Assembly: GCA_016197185.1 (NCBI GenBank)
Contig: JACPWH010000080.1
Span: 1-41,107, forward strand
Length of the DNA: 41,107 bases
Direction of reading: 5' to 3'
Source of the DNA: Ignavibacteriota bacterium
Lineage (GTDB): Bacteria > Bacteroidota > Ignavibacteria > Kapaibacteriales > UBA961
The position numbers and the translations under genes are program-made. The notes beneath the pieces are model-generated. The model was not told where the DNA came from. It searched no databases and worked only from the letters and a program-made list of their open reading frames with translations. Below are positions 20,793-40,142 of this stretch, piece by piece (position 1 is the stretch's first letter; every line of letters begins with the position of its first letter).

Positions 20793-22009
20793 ATGTCATC
20801 TCCCCAATTCAAACGTGATTTAAAACTTCTCGATGCCACGATGATCGTTGTCGGCTCGATGATAGGCAGCGGTATATTCATTGTTAGTGCCGATATTGCC
20901 CGTAGTGTGGGCGGTGGCGGTATGCTGCTGCTTGTATGGGCTATTACCGGTTTGGTGACGCTCATTGCAGCTCTTAGCTATGGTGAGCTTGCCGGAATGA
21001 TGCCCAAGGCCGGTGGCCAGTATGTCTATCTCCGTGAAGCATATAATCCGTTTGTAGGTTTCCTTTATGGCTGGACACTTTTTACGGTTATTCAGACGGG
21101 TACAATTGCTGCAGTCGGCGTAGCTTTCGCAAAATATACAGGTGTGCTTATGCCAGTTTTCAGCGAGAAGAATATTGTGCTCCATCTCGGTAGTATTCCT
21201 GTCTCTGCTGCGCAGATCCTATCAATTGTAAGTATAGCATTCCTGACTTGGCTGAATATTCGGGGAGTTCGCGCCGGGAAAATCGTTCAGAATCTCTTTA
21301 CATCTACTAAAATAATTGCTCTTATCGGGCTGATTATCCTTGGAATAATCATTGGAAAAAATGCCGTTGCCATGGGTGCGAATTTCGATCATTTCTGGGC
21401 AGTGGACTTGAATAAGTGGGACAGTCTATCAAAATGGAACAGTTTGATTCCAACCGAAACTCCATATTCACTGGCAATTATTGCAGCAATCGGAACTGCA
21501 ATGGTCGGGTCGCTTTTTTCGAGTGATGCTTGGAATAATATTACCTTTACCGCAGGAGAAGTGGTCAACCCAAAACGAACGATTCCGTTAAGTCTGGCAT
21601 TAGGGACGGGGATTGTAACATTACTCTATATTCTTGCAAACGTTTCAAAAGAGCAGGAGAATTAAACAGCAACGGAGTTCCGGCAGTTGCATTGGTTGTT
21701 CAAGGAGTTTGGGCATGTGCTCTTTGCCTTTCGGGGAAATACGGGGATTTGCTTGATTATGTTGTAACAGCCGTACTGATTTTCTATATATTGACTATCG
21801 GCGGGATATTTATCTTACGGCGCAAACAACCGGATGCAGAGCGTCCGTACAAAGCATTCGGGTATCCTGTACTTCCGGCTTTGTATATGATCATTGCAGC
21901 AGCAATAATCTTGGATTTGTTATTATTGAAAAGTGATACCACACTGTGGGGAGTGGCAATCATTCTTACAGGAATACCAGTGTATTTTTTATGGAAACGA
22001 AAGATATAA
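20793..22009 (+). pseudogene. Amino acid permease (APC family) with internal deletion and frameshift
   Basis: The 5' part (20793-21665) encodes about 284 residues of an APC transporter, including MIVVGSMIGSGIFIVSADIA and AGGQYVYLREAYNPFVGFLY. The match stops at LYILANV near 21644. The 3' part (21644-22009) continues in another frame with FKRAGELNSNGVPAVALVV and ends RPYKAFGYPVLPALYMI...YFLWKRKI. Family members have about 65-80 further residues between these two pieces, covering one or two membrane helices. The two halves therefore look joined by an out-of-frame deletion, leaving TAA at 21663. A functional transporter is unlikely unless this is an assembly error. Confidence 0.8.
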
Positions 22010-29280: not shown

Positions 29281-29785
29281 ATTAATACTAAGAAAAATAA
29301 CAGTATATTAAAATTTAAGTTTCGCTGAGGAATTATACAAAGGGAATATCTGATTAACGCATATCACTTAGATTCACTCTGTGAACTTTGTTTGCAGAAG
29401 GTAAGTAACAATTGATCAGCATTTTCGAACTGCAGTAAATTCGTAAGAATCCATAGTGTGTCTGTTCTTTTACTCTTTCCTACAAACATTGATTACAAAA
29501 TTATAATGAAAAGAAGAATTTTCTATAAGCGGTGAGGGTCGGAAAAATAAAAAATAGCTTAAATAACATTTTATATTTGTCTTGCAAATAATATTTGTAA
29601 TAATAAAACGTTCTATAAGTTTGATTCTAATTAATTATATCAAATTATATCAAAGAAAATTTGTAATTTTAAAACAATACTGTCACATCAGTCAGAGTTC
29701 AAGCGGATAGTAGGATAAAATTGAATTATGAATTTTATATTGTCGGTACTTCTTAAATGTTTTATTTTAAATTCAGGGGTATAAA
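29281..29785. other. 505-base AT-rich divergent intergenic region
   Basis: It separates the minus-strand carboxyltransferase from the plus-strand AT-hook gene, so it should hold promoters for both. No gene is seen. It is very AT-rich, especially 29530-29785. A perfect tandem copy of ATTATATCAA lies at 29634-29653. Clear promoter consensus elements could not be assigned. Confidence 0.55.
29634..29653. repeat. Tandem 10-base repeat ATTATATCAA x2
   Basis: Two perfect adjacent copies, one helical turn apart, 133 bases upstream of the AT-hook gene start. A binding site is possible, but chance in AT-rich DNA cannot be excluded. Confidence 0.5.
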
Positions 29786-30748
29786 ATGAAAGCTCTTCAA
29801 GAAAAACTTGAGAACTTAAATAAGCTTAGTAGTAAATTAAGCAAAAAATACGAAAAGTTAGACGAAAAATACGAAAAGCTTCGTAAAAAAGCGGAAAGGT
29901 TAAACGAGCAGGCGATGTTGATAAATGCTGCTTACGAACTTTTGAATCCGGAAGGAGAACGAACTGATAAACTTGCACATAGGCAGGGAACAGCAAACAA
30001 AAAGCAAGATGTGATTTACATTGATGTAGATGATAATTCTGCGGTAGAAAATGAACTGGAGCAACTTGTAGTGGTAGTGAAACCCCTTGAATATGAAGAT
30101 AATACTCCAAAAAGACGTGGCAGACCTGCGGGAGTAAAAAATAAAAAATCAGTTTTCGGAAACTATTCAACTGTATCTTCTTCAGCAGGTAGTGAAGATG
30201 AAAGTCTAGGAAATCAAATTAAGAGAAGAGGCAGACCTCCAGGTGCGAAAAACAAAAAATTATCTGCAAGTGCTAAAAAAGCTAGAAGATTAGCATTGAG
30301 ATCTGTTTTAGCATCTGCTGAAGCTCAAGATGGTACACCCAAAAGACGAGGCAGACCACCAGGGGTGAAGAATGGACAAACCTCCGCGAACTTAAATGTA
30401 ACTAATGAAATTGCACGGAACTCAATGTCCGGTATGGAATCTTCGGATGTCCAAGGTGAAGCCCCAAAAAGAAGAGGTAGACCTCCAGGTGCAAAAAACA
30501 TTAAGCCGGCTTCTCCTTCAAAAAGTAGTGCAAAAACTCGTCAAGAGTCTGCAAGTGGGATTGAATCCATGAATGTTCAAGATTCTCAACCAAGAAGACG
30601 CGGCAGACCGCCGGGAGCTAAAAATATAAAACCAACAAAAGCAAGTAAAAATGCAAAAGCTAACAATGCAGCTAATAGTGACGGAAGCGAACCTGTAGTC
30701 AAAAAACTTGGCAGACCTCCCGGAGCAAAAAATAAAAGAAGTAATTGA
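29786..30748 (+). CDS. Six-AT-hook DNA-binding protein with N-terminal coiled coil
   Basis: A 320-residue, strongly basic protein. Residues 1-50 form a Lys/Leu/Glu coiled coil (LSKKYEKLDEKYEKLRKKAE). Six AT-hooks follow, with GRP at residues 112, 149, 189, 231, 273 and 309. Five have the core (K/R)RRGRP(P/A)G(A/V)KN; the last is KKLGRPPGAKN. Spacing is 36-42 residues, and linkers are Ser/Ala/Lys/Glu-rich and probably disordered. AT-hooks bind the minor groove of AT-rich DNA, as in HMGA. An oligomerising coiled coil plus minor-groove hooks recalls the layout, not the sequence, of H-NS/MvaT/Lsr2-type silencers. A nucleoid or silencing role is inferred. The upstream region is AT-rich, so autoregulation is possible. 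Confidence 0.88.
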   Translation: MKALQEKLENLNKLSSKLSKKYEKLDEKYEKLRKKAERLNEQAMLINAAYELLNPEGERTDKLAHRQGTANKKQDVIYIDVDDNSAVENELEQLVVVVKPLEYEDNTPKRRGRPAGVKNKKSVFGNYSTVSSSAGSEDESLGNQIKRRGRPPGAKNKKLSASAKKARRLALRSVLASAEAQDGTPKRRGRPPGVKNGQTSANLNVTNEIARNSMSGMESSDVQGEAPKRRGRPPGAKNIKPASPSKSSAKTRQESASGIESMNVQDSQPRRRGRPPGAKNIKPTKASKNAKANNAANSDGSEPVVKKLGRPPGAKNKRSN

Positions 30749-35804: not shown

Positions 35805-38800
35805 TTATCTGGTAATTATGCTTTTTCTTACTGTTGAAAATTGCCCTGACGTAAACTTAACACTATATATTCCTCCTGATAGATCACCTACAGGAATTGT
35901 AATTTTGTGTTCACCTGCTCCAAGTGATGGAATTTCGATAGTTTTAATAACTTCTCCTAATTGATTAATCATAGAGAACGTTGCTTTGCCCGTTAACCCG
36001 ACACTTACGTCAAAGAAAATATCATCTGAAACAGGATTTGGATATGGCTCACTCAAAGAATACATATTACCTGTCATCGCAACAACCCGCCCATTATTGA
36101 AACACCCGAGTAACATTTCCACTGTAGTGCCTTGTGCAGAAAGAGTAAGACATTTAAGCGGACTTTCGATATTTATTATAATCGGATATGTCCCTTGCTT
36201 TTCCAAATAGGTATTCAAATCCAATGAGAAAAGTTTCTGAGATTGGAGTTCATGTATAGATTGTGTAGCAATGCCCAAAATGTTAAAAACTCCTTTGTTT
36301 TGCTCGGCATTATCAATTGACCAGTTCCATCCCGGCATTATTGGATTCACCTTTACAATATTAAGTACCTGAGGTGGAACTGTTATTTTAAAGCGAAGGG
36401 AATCTAAATTTGTATTATTTAAGTTCTCAACATTGGCGATTACTGTTACAGAAATTCTTTCACCCGGATTAAATGTAGTATTATCTGCGAGTAACTGAAC
36501 ATTTCCTGCAACAGTGTAGCCACTACCTGATATTCGGATTGTAAATACTTGATTTGCTTCTGTAGTCAGGGTAATTGTAGCAGAATAAAGTTTACTTTCA
36601 GAAGGGCTGAATATCACTTGTATGCTTCTAGAGCCTCCTGCAGGAACAACCAGAAAATCAGCAGGAGAATATGTAAATATACTACCATCACCATTGAACT
36701 CTATGTTAGTTATTTTAACATCATTTGCGGGGTCAATATTCGTGATGGTAATAGAGTCAACTGCTGATTCACATGTAAGAACCCTCTCAAAATCTATTAC
36801 AGAATCAACTTGAAGAGGTGTAAAAAAACCAAAACCTGTTATTTCGACTGTGTCATATCTTGGAATTGTAATATCAGGACCCGGTACAGCATCGGACATA
36901 ATTTCGATATGAGCAATACGTTTACCCACAGCATTAGCTGTAAATCGAATATCATACGTTTGAATATCAGATGTGTTATCCTGGATGATAAAATTTGCAG
37001 ACGGTGGCGTTGCCCACGCAAAATCTCCTGTGTTATCTCCGGCTATAGAAATGAATCGCACACCTTTGATAGCAGTTTCCGATGTTGTGCTTGGGTTATA
37101 CATCGTTAATTTACCGATTTCTGGGGAAAGCGTATTTAGGTAGGTCGGTTTAAAATCATATCCAATACCACGAACATCAGGAAGAACACCCTGTCCGTCC
37201 AAAGTACCCACTAACGGTTTAGAGAAACCCTCTACTTCAACCTGTACTGAATTATGATAAGAGAGTGTATCCTGAGGATTAAATAGCACTAAAAACCATA
37301 TACTGTCTTTTACTTTAATTGTTAAGGGCACTGTTGGAAAAATAGGAACAAAACTATTCTCAGGTTGAACCTCAAGTGATATTTTATTAATTTTCAAATC
37401 AGTAGTGCCTGTATTCCGAATCCACATTGTATCCAAATTGTCAGTTAATTTACGTTTCCTGTACCAATTAAGAGAATCAATTTTTGCCTGACGGTCAATT
37501 CCAAATCCTGTGAAGATAATTTGTTGTTCAGAGCATTCAGTAAAAACCCTCAGCACTGAAGAAAGATAGCTTGTTGCGGATGGTGTGAAACGTATAGTAA
37601 GTGCAATACATGAATCCTTCGGAATGGTAACGCCTTTTAGAGCCGATGTTAATGAAAAATCATTCGGAAAATTACCCTCAAATTTGTAATCGGTAAATGT
37701 GATTGGAATCTGACCCTTATTACAAAGAATGGCTTTAAATGTAGTGTCGTGGAAATCACCGATTTGACCTGTTCCTACAGTATTAGGCTGGTAGGCAAAG
37801 CCAAAATAGGGATCGGAGATTGTACAGTAGGAATCACTGACATCACCCAGAGATAAAATTCTCCCTATTCTTCTCACATAAAAATCTTTTGCACCTACAC
37901 TACGAATGGTTGTATCACCTGATGTGAAGTTCCCTCCGTAAGTACTTGTTTCATAGGTATTTCCAATACTGTCTTTTGCGACTCTCTGGTTGAAAGGCAA
38001 CTGATATGTACTATCTTGAAGAGATGTTATGTTACCGTTTTGATTAACAAATGCCAGAAAAGTTTTCACTACATTTGGAGACTCAAGTTTTGCTGTTATT
38101 CCACTTTCGAGGCGAATACTCATTATTCCTTGATAAGTACCTTCGATATACATTTTTTTTGTTGCAGAATCTCTTGCTATTCGCAGCGCGCGAACATTAT
38201 TTGTACTATTAATTGTAGTAAGCCATGTTTGTTTGCCGGTTGGGTCAATCTTTGCTACATATAGTTGATAAAAATTTGTTGATGTAGGCATAACCTCACC
38301 AAGAACATAGCATGAAATATCTGCCGAATCAATGGCTACTCCTTTTCCGCCTGAAAACAAATAAGGGGCGAGCGGAGCTAAAAAAGTAGCCCCGCTAACA
38401 GCCCAGATTAATTTTTCATTGTTATATCTGGCAAGAAATGCTTCTTGGGTTTTAGAAGATACAATTACCTTACCGTCGAACGTAGCCTGTTTGTTAAAAT
38501 CTCCTGTAAGATACAACGTAGAGCCATCAGAGGTAACGGTTACTGCTGTTGAAGAATCACCGGCTAATCCGCCTCCGCTCCTTGTCCATGCCGGTCCGAT
38601 CGGCTTTGGAGAATAAGGCGATACACGGATCATATAAGTATTTGGTTGGGGTGGTTTCCAATTGTAGTAATTATGCGTAGCAAACGGAGTAACCAACTGC
38701 CAGGTAGCACCAATATCCATACTGTATTCAAGTTTTACGGTATCAGTTTCCTCCACGCCTGTCCAAGAAATAAACAGAGAATCACAAGTTGAAAATGCTT

Positions 38801-40070
38801 CTCCGCCATTAGGAGTAAGAAGTGTTATTTTCTTAATACCGCCACTTAACAGAACAATAGGGGCTGAACATGGAGTACCTGATATTAATAATTGGGCTGA
38901 ACGTGCATCTCTTGGAGAAGTTTGTGTAAACTGTACTGTAATGGTACGCGAAGTTCCTTTTGCAAGAGTAAATGGGGGAGGAGTGCCGCCCCAATCAATA
39001 ATTGAAAAATTTCCTTGTGAAGAAGGGATAAATGAATGTCCTGTTACATTCATATCCCCGTTTTGTGCAGTTATTGTATATGTCTCTTGAAGGGAATTTC
39101 CTGCAGGTATATCAGGAAAAGGAGGTAATGATACTACCGAATTGATAATACCTGACACACTCGAAGGTGGAGCAATGTAAACATCGTTATATATAGTATT
39201 ACTTGGTTTATGTCTCAGGAAAACATTTCGTGTGCGGCTGGCTTCCGTACACCCCGGAGGTGAAATCCATTCAAGCCAACAGTAGGTAACAGTTTGACGG
39301 CTGCTTGTGGCAAGTGAGCTGTAGATATAATTAAGTGCATCCAGTGTTAAACTTACATACAATTGACCCCCAGACTTCTGTGCAATTTCACGCAGGTCAG
39401 TTGATGCATCATTACTCATGCATATTGCATACGTTTTAATTTTAAAGGTAACAAGTTTATTGATTATTGTTTGAGTTGAAGGTTTTGAATTGGGATTACC
39501 GTCTGTCAGGAAGATAATTGTTTTTTTAATCCAACTCGGACGTGTATTTAGGAGGTCGATAGCCCCGATTGCACCTTTTAAAAAAGGTGGGTCGTATTGT
39601 GTAGAGCCGGTTGCAGTGGAAATATTATCAATTGCCTGGATTAAAACGTCTTTATCATTTTGGAATCCAATTTTTAGGTAAGAATCACCATTGAAAGTAA
39701 TGATGGCAATATAGGTATTTGCATTGAACACCAAATTATTTATGAATGTTTTTGCGCCTTCTTTTACCCAATCCAGTCTTTTCTTACCCCCACCAACAGG
39801 TTCATCCATAGAGGTACTGATATCAATCACTAAAACTGCACTTAATGATGGATCATCGGGTACGGTAGTGCAATTTACTTTTAGTGTGGACTTCATATCA
39901 ATGCCATTTTCTTGAACAACAAAATCTTGCAGTTTGGCATTGTTGAACATCGGACCTGACCCGTATGCTTTAACTATAGGATAACCTGAAGCATCTACAC
40001 CGGTAAATTGAGCTTTAGCTATTCCATAGCCAAGCACAAATAACAGTAAAAATGGTAAAAACTTTTTCAT
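35805..40070 (-). CDS. Large VWA-domain T9SS cargo protein
   Basis: A 1421-residue protein; the start at 40070 opens a signal peptide (KKFLPFLLLFVLGYGIAKA), and an earlier in-frame ATG at 40130 is less likely. A von Willebrand A domain spans about 75-270 with MIDAS motif DISTS at 83-87 and FLTDGNPN. Later come choice-of-anchor D (ASH-like) beta-sandwich repeats (LTIRFTPSATSYLSSVLRVF and others, about 760-1150). A cohesin-like module follows (NPGERISVTVIANVENL), then the T9SS type A domain (PYPNPVSDDIFFDVS to VRKSIITR). It is probably a surface adhesin or structural protein; the partner is unknown. It shares its last two modules with the upstream gene. Confidence 0.85.
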   Translation of the reverse strand: MKKFLPFLLLFVLGYGIAKAQFTGVDASGYPIVKAYGSGPMFNNAKLQDFVVQENGIDMKSTLKVNCTTVPDDPSLSAVLVIDISTSMDEPVGGGKKRLDWVKEGAKTFINNLVFNANTYIAIITFNGDSYLKIGFQNDKDVLIQAIDNISTATGSTQYDPPFLKGAIGAIDLLNTRPSWIKKTIIFLTDGNPNSKPSTQTIINKLVTFKIKTYAICMSNDASTDLREIAQKSGGQLYVSLTLDALNYIYSSLATSSRQTVTYCWLEWISPPGCTEASRTRNVFLRHKPSNTIYNDVYIAPPSSVSGIINSVVSLPPFPDIPAGNSLQETYTITAQNGDMNVTGHSFIPSSQGNFSIIDWGGTPPPFTLAKGTSRTITVQFTQTSPRDARSAQLLISGTPCSAPIVLLSGGIKKITLLTPNGGEAFSTCDSLFISWTGVEETDTVKLEYSMDIGATWQLVTPFATHNYYNWKPPQPNTYMIRVSPYSPKPIGPAWTRSGGGLAGDSSTAVTVTSDGSTLYLTGDFNKQATFDGKVIVSSKTQEAFLARYNNEKLIWAVSGATFLAPLAPYLFSGGKGVAIDSADISCYVLGEVMPTSTNFYQLYVAKIDPTGKQTWLTTINSTNNVRALRIARDSATKKMYIEGTYQGIMSIRLESGITAKLESPNVVKTFLAFVNQNGNITSLQDSTYQLPFNQRVAKDSIGNTYETSTYGGNFTSGDTTIRSVGAKDFYVRRIGRILSLGDVSDSYCTISDPYFGFAYQPNTVGTGQIGDFHDTTFKAILCNKGQIPITFTDYKFEGNFPNDFSLTSALKGVTIPKDSCIALTIRFTPSATSYLSSVLRVFTECSEQQIIFTGFGIDRQAKIDSLNWYRKRKLTDNLDTMWIRNTGTTDLKINKISLEVQPENSFVPIFPTVPLTIKVKDSIWFLVLFNPQDTLSYHNSVQVEVEGFSKPLVGTLDGQGVLPDVRGIGYDFKPTYLNTLSPEIGKLTMYNPSTTSETAIKGVRFISIAGDNTGDFAWATPPSANFIIQDNTSDIQTYDIRFTANAVGKRIAHIEIMSDAVPGPDITIPRYDTVEITGFGFFTPLQVDSVIDFERVLTCESAVDSITITNIDPANDVKITNIEFNGDGSIFTYSPADFLVVPAGGSRSIQVIFSPSESKLYSATITLTTEANQVFTIRISGSGYTVAGNVQLLADNTTFNPGERISVTVIANVENLNNTNLDSLRFKITVPPQVLNIVKVNPIMPGWNWSIDNAEQNKGVFNILGIATQSIHELQSQKLFSLDLNTYLEKQGTYPIIINIESPLKCLTLSAQGTTVEMLLGCFNNGRVVAMTGNMYSLSEPYPNPVSDDIFFDVSVGLTGKATFSMINQLGEVIKTIEIPSLGAGEHKITIPVGDLSGGIYSVKFTSGQFSTVRKSIITR

Positions 40071-40108
40071 ATTCATTAGTTTTTGGTAAATGAAAAAATA
40101 CAAATAAA

Positions 40109-40142
40109 AAGGGATGCATATTGAAGTCAATCTGCATCCCTT
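40109..40142 (-). terminator. Rho-independent terminator for the upstream minus-strand gene
   Basis: On the minus strand, AAGGGATGCA and TGCATCCCTT form a 10-base stem with a 14-base loop followed by a TTTTTATTT run, 36 bases after the stop of the gene that ends at 40178. Confidence 0.85.

Follow-up and report, generated by a model that had tools for sequence, protein, structure and literature searches.

Results

A hook-protein gene in an ordinary chromosomal setting

The window, by which we mean the whole stretch of 41,107 nucleotides analysed here (Ignavibacteriota bacterium, assembly GCA_016197185.1, contig JACPWH010000080.1), contains an open reading frame in which a leucine-zipper-like coiled coil, an acidic linker and a tail of AT-hook motifs follow one another (Table 1). 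By Pfam, the neighbouring genes encode a carboxyltransferase, an adenine deaminase and cyclophilins, an ordinary chromosomal setting, and no Rfam RNA or tRNA genes were found within the window.

Table 1. Positions of the hook-protein gene, its parts and its upstream region in the window.
Feature	Positions	Strand	Description
AT-rich intergenic region	29281..29785	.	505 bp, 26% G+C; between the divergent carboxyltransferase gene and the hook-protein gene
Whole CDS, chromosomal ORF	29786..30748	+	320 aa, 34.9 kDa, pI about 10.3; ATG start, TGA stop
N-terminal conserved module	29786..29983	+	residues 1-66; leucine-zipper-like coiled coil 2-53, then short conserved tail ERTDKxAHR
Acidic fast-evolving linker	29984..30109	+	residues 67-108; 10 acidic vs 3 basic residues; predicted disordered
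Hook 1 KRRGRPAGVKNKK	30110..30148	+	residues 109-121; RGRP core
Hook 2 KRRGRPPGAKNKK	30221..30259	+	residues 146-158; RGRP core
Hook 3 KRRGRPPGVKNGQ	30341..30379	+	residues 186-198; RGRP core
Hook 4 KRRGRPPGAKNIK	30467..30505	+	residues 228-240; RGRP core
Hook 5 RRRGRPPGAKNIK	30593..30631	+	residues 270-282; RGRP core
Hook 6 KKLGRPPGAKNKR	30701..30739	+	residues 306-318; degenerate core

The leader ATTCAGGGGTATAAAATG (window 29767-29785), before and at the start codon, is common to the three species sequenced from the genus, the single difference being one inserted A in the genome that we call G001; the wider upstream region has diverged, and the conservation of the leader supports translation of the reading frame. 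The coil also has a lower synonymous divergence (pS 0.38) than the linkers or the adenine deaminase (about 0.62), and the near-identical leader and the low coil pS together hint that the 5' end of the mRNA is constrained or that expression is high. The AT-rich intergenic region is possibly a site of autoregulation. No promoter is claimed from the Bacteroidota-type TAnnTTTG motif, as this is barely enriched in the window, and the terminator-like matches inside the gene arise from the repeated hook DNA. Elsewhere in the window, an amino-acid permease gene (20793-22009) is seemingly split, with a 290-aa reading frame whose match is limited to roughly the first 240 of the 427 profile positions, followed by a separate one of 105 aa, which may reflect a frameshift, a pseudogene or an assembly error; on the minus strand, positions 35805-40130 encode a 1441-aa VWA protein that combines HYDIN/CFA65-type Ig domains with a type IX secretion sorting tail.

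Coiled coil and hook array

Judged by its pattern, the coiled coil is real. Eight consecutive Leu/Ile residues occupy the heptad d positions (L4, L11, L18, L25, L32, L39, I46 and L53), a run of a length reached in 2e-5 of shuffles, and AlphaFold2, given the three orthologs as input, builds residues 2-53 as a single helix with pLDDT of about 90-96. The a positions of the zipper include the small or polar S15, A36 and A43, which we count against an architectural-protein reading. Beyond residue 53, the model is of low confidence, apart from a weak helix at 161-177, and the tail is predicted to be disordered.

In the tail, the unit GRPxGxKN starts at residues 112, 149, 189, 231, 273 and 309, the spacings of 37, 40, 42, 42 and 36 agreeing with the regular 36-42 residues of the original prediction; at the DNA level, the hooks are six 46-nt repeats, with copies 111, 120, 126, 126 and 108 nt apart. 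The six GRP tripeptides compare with a maximum of 3 and a mean of 0.13 in 100,000 shuffles of the protein. Five of the six hooks have an R-G-R-P core with basic residues on its flanks, as in AT-hooks of the HMGA type; the sixth reads KKLGRP rather than RGRP, and the earlier description needs correcting for this hook. The score of the Pfam AT_hook model (PF02178), 11.1 bits, lies below the gathering cut-off of 17.4, so that a Pfam annotation would leave the hooks unnamed; the model is only 13 residues long, which makes this weak evidence in either direction. The arrangement originally described, six hooks behind a coiled coil, is nevertheless borne out by the motif positions, the shuffles, the heptad pattern and the AlphaFold2 helix.

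Orthologs, selection and repeat history

Whole-genome searches recovered orthologs in no genomes but the other two that have been sequenced from the genus. The ortholog in G002 (uncultured Ignavibacteria bacterium, CALMMI010000577.1) is 332 aa long, with seven hooks and, like the window gene, an adenine deaminase gene downstream; that in G001 (Bacteroidetes bacterium SZAS-91, JAFDZU010000010.1) is 189 aa long, with four hooks, the same divergent carboxyltransferase upstream and different genes downstream. The homologue search and hook count proposed with the original prediction thus give three orthologs, with four, six and seven hooks. In G001, one of the four hooks has RGRP and three have LGRP, which means the loss of one minor-groove arginine and makes a strict equivalence to HMGA uncertain.

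No ortholog turned up in 11 other genomes of the family, and no homolog outside the genus was found among 60 relatives. With the coil profile, the 123 genomes of the order gave no convincing match, the weak ones at E of about 1e-3 looking like generic coiled coils, and with the full profile, samples of the class (391 genomes) and the phylum (395) gave nothing homologous; no relatives were seen in phages, plasmids or viral contigs (IMG/VR). The protein is missing from every other genus of the family and so does not qualify as a general, essential chromosome protein of the lineage. In sister genera, the carboxyltransferase has another gene upstream of it, and the hook-protein gene was thus gained or relocated in the genus.

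By a codon scan for GRPxG[A/S]KN across the 395 phylum genomes, hook arrays are confined to the genus, with no or single matches elsewhere. The sole other exact match to the hook-codon pattern in the protein's own genome is a single GRPKGAKN at the usual hinge position of a serine-recombinase/resolvase-like protein (L056:1158-1793, contig C207). The only extra match of the full profile in the phylum, in genome G133, was set aside as a SixA-type protein that carries RGRKP repeats but is unrelated. This 541-aa reading frame (L041:637-2262) has an N-terminus resembling a SixA-type phosphohistidine phosphatase and, in its C-terminal half, about ten regularly spaced KKRGRKP[A/G]xK repeats; it is a further case in bacteria of AT-hook-like motifs in an array, here joined to a domain where they would not be expected.

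Between the window protein and its G002 ortholog, which come from the two most closely related species, the coil (pN/pS 0.03, 97% identical) is the most strongly constrained part, the hooks (0.12, 90% identical) are also well conserved and the linkers (0.53, 49% identical) are under weak selection; the acidic segment has a pN/pS of 0.22, and the neighbouring adenine deaminase, our yardstick, one of 0.19. The N-terminal module is near-invariant across the three species. The low values of coil and hooks relative to the linkers are direct evidence that both modules are functional and are the parts that count, and the drift of the linkers that it is their length and flexibility that are needed, not their sequence. 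The two-module protein is real and constrained, with a hook array that is changing in length.

How the array changed can be followed in part. Hooks 1-6 align one to one between the window protein and G002, and the extra C-terminal hook of G002 lies just 14 residues further along. Linkers 3 and 4, each of 29 aa, are more similar to one another than chance would give, in both nucleotides (P = 0.0002) and amino acids (P = 0.0023; ten pairs tested), and the remaining linkers show little or no detectable relatedness. Of the past repeat expansion in the original prediction, what stands is an apparent expansion of hook-plus-linker units in mid-array, supported by the hook numbers of 4, 6 and 7 and by the similarity of linkers 3 and 4; the comparison of linker pairs does not demonstrate it for the outer linkers.

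Family searches

Fold, sequence and profile searches found no housekeeping domain (Pfam, NCBIfam, PHROGs, PADLOC, and the PDB by sequence and by fold), a finding of which would have refuted the original prediction. When the PDB was searched by sequence with the whole protein, a single hook, the array of hooks and the coil as queries, there were no matches, and the fold search of the model gave noise only, as is expected of a mostly disordered model. By homology, the protein is a genus-specific orphan outside the H-NS, Lsr2, CarD and HMGA families: the Histone_HNS domain of H-NS (PF00816) has no match in it or in the three genomes of the genus; Lsr2 (PF11774) has none in it and solely sub-threshold matches elsewhere in the genus; no CarD_CdnL_TRCF domain is found by Pfam, the N-terminus being a single helix; and the six hooks, the basic C-terminus and the empty PDB sequence search do not fit the HMGA family.

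The original prediction had raised the question of other silencers, and the genus is indeed without a detected H-NS and without Lsr2 above the cut-off, the protein's own genome holding two copies of HU. The lack of H-NS and Lsr2 fits the existence of another silencer; the same would hold for most Bacteroidota, from which the known silencers are, to our knowledge, typically absent, and such absence alone leaves a silencing role unproven.

Discussion

Plant AHL proteins combine a PPC domain with one or two hooks, and the window protein differs in having no Pfam match to the PPC domain, or indeed to any other. The likeness is in the hook itself: AHL type-I AT-hooks consist of RGRP and a GSKNK-type extension (PMC12430185), and hook 1 of the window protein reads RGRPAGVKNKK. 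The extension similarly resembles that of the second hook of HMGA1, RGRPKGSK... (PMC11354804). HMGA1 and HMGA2 also string several AT-hooks along a disordered chain, but their hooks number three, their C-tail is acidic and they lack a coiled coil, and no homology was detected beyond the hook motif. The earlier label "HMGA-like" is thus apt for the motif but not for descent, and most G001 hooks lack the first arginine of RGRP.

The known silencers pair an oligomeriser at the N-terminus with a minor-groove binder at the C-terminus, and multivalence raises their affinity, H-NS and Lsr2 reaching the AT-rich minor groove via a Q/RGR AT-hook-like motif (PMC4466236). Going by the sequence and the AlphaFold2 helix, the window protein appears to have the same order of parts as H-NS, Lsr2 and MvaT, a putative oligomerisation module at the N-terminus and then a C-terminal tail that would bind the AT-rich minor groove; the difference is that these proteins have one folded domain with one motif per subunit, whereas here there are six free hooks on a disordered tail. 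The H-NS paralogue Ler makes do with one inserted arginine, that of VGR (PMC4466236), and by analogy the LGRP hooks, one of six in the window protein and three of four in G001, may be weaker, one-arginine versions.

On balance, the sequence features make the protein probably a genus-specific, oligomeric and multivalent architectural DNA protein that binds the minor groove and is associated with the nucleoid. The original prediction of an oligomerising coil joined to an AT-hook array is supported as regards the architecture, on the strength of the heptads, the AlphaFold2 helix and the selection on both modules, and from this architecture we infer DNA binding and oligomerisation. The N-terminal helix would form a dimer or higher oligomer, and each hook would enter the minor groove of a short AT tract, in the manner of HMGA1 hook 2 and the AHL type-I hooks. 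A dimer would offer about 12 weak sites on flexible linkers, and such an array could provide avidity for long AT-rich DNA and a chance of bridging two segments; the probable outcome would be compaction and/or repression of AT-rich regions, alongside HU. Binding by avidity would also explain why the number of hooks tolerates change.

Such a protein might act as a global silencer, like H-NS and Lsr2, or as a promoter-specific architectural factor. A promoter-level factor similar to CarD fits the anatomy equally well. CarD of Myxococcus is a bacterial protein whose disordered, HMGA-like hook tail, an RGRP array behind an acidic stretch, binds the AT-rich minor groove (PMC4374960); it has three or four hooks, their number varying among orthologs, and is lineage-restricted (PMC4374960, PMC9304148). 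The window protein shares the disordered basic tail with several RGRP hooks, the acidic segment before it, the lineage restriction and the varying hook number, but has a coiled coil where CarD has a folded RNA-polymerase-binding domain, and it and its orthologs have 4-7 hooks of the GRPxGxKN type rather than three or four. With CarD as precedent, the coil could be the docking site for RNA polymerase, a sigma factor or some other regulator, which the hooks would hold at a small number of AT-rich promoters, and the protein would in that case not be a bulk nucleoid protein; the 26% G+C of the upstream region would suit this, and the identity of the coil (97%) compared with the linkers (49%) could reflect a heterotypic partner. 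Self-association of the coil, however, accounts for that conservation by the coil pattern alone, and Pfam detects neither CarD_CdnL_TRCF nor another protein-interaction domain; nothing ties the gene to one pathway, and its downstream neighbour varies between species. We regard promoter-specific regulation as rather unlikely.

That the basic hooks bind or condense structured RNA instead of DNA seems improbable to us. HMGA1 AT-hooks and a non-canonical, extended AT-hook can bind RNA (PMC11354804), and the tail is strongly basic and disordered; the conserved GRP-xGxKN unit, however, matches the DNA-binding hooks, HMGA1 hook 2 and AHL type I, and in studies cited by PMC11354804, 7SK and TAR RNA are bound by the first HMGA1 hook only. 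Nor does the window hold RNA-linked neighbours. The restriction to one genus, the want of relatives and a gene gained or moved, as the sister genera differ upstream of the carboxyltransferase, might even recall a phage or plasmid remnant or a functionless, spurious low-complexity reading frame. This is largely refuted, and very improbable, given that purifying selection acts on the coil and the hooks between species, that three intact orthologs share a conserved translation leader, and that the phage and plasmid searches were empty.

To return to the nucleoid-associated architectural protein, its most far-reaching form is one that we hold only tentatively: a bacterial chromatin protein of a new, recently evolved class, in which a zipper would make the dimer and a disordered array of many AT-hooks would condense or silence AT-rich DNA, the hook number expanding and contracting between species and the principle being different from that of H-NS, Lsr2, MvaT and Rok. 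If this were true, a bacterium would have independently built the plan of a xenogeneic silencer from HMGA-type hooks, with many weak sites in a disordered tail replacing one folded domain. The species with 4, 6 and 7 hooks would then form a natural series for relating avidity to hook number, and the recent origin, within one genus, would make the protein suited to the study of how a nucleoid protein arises.
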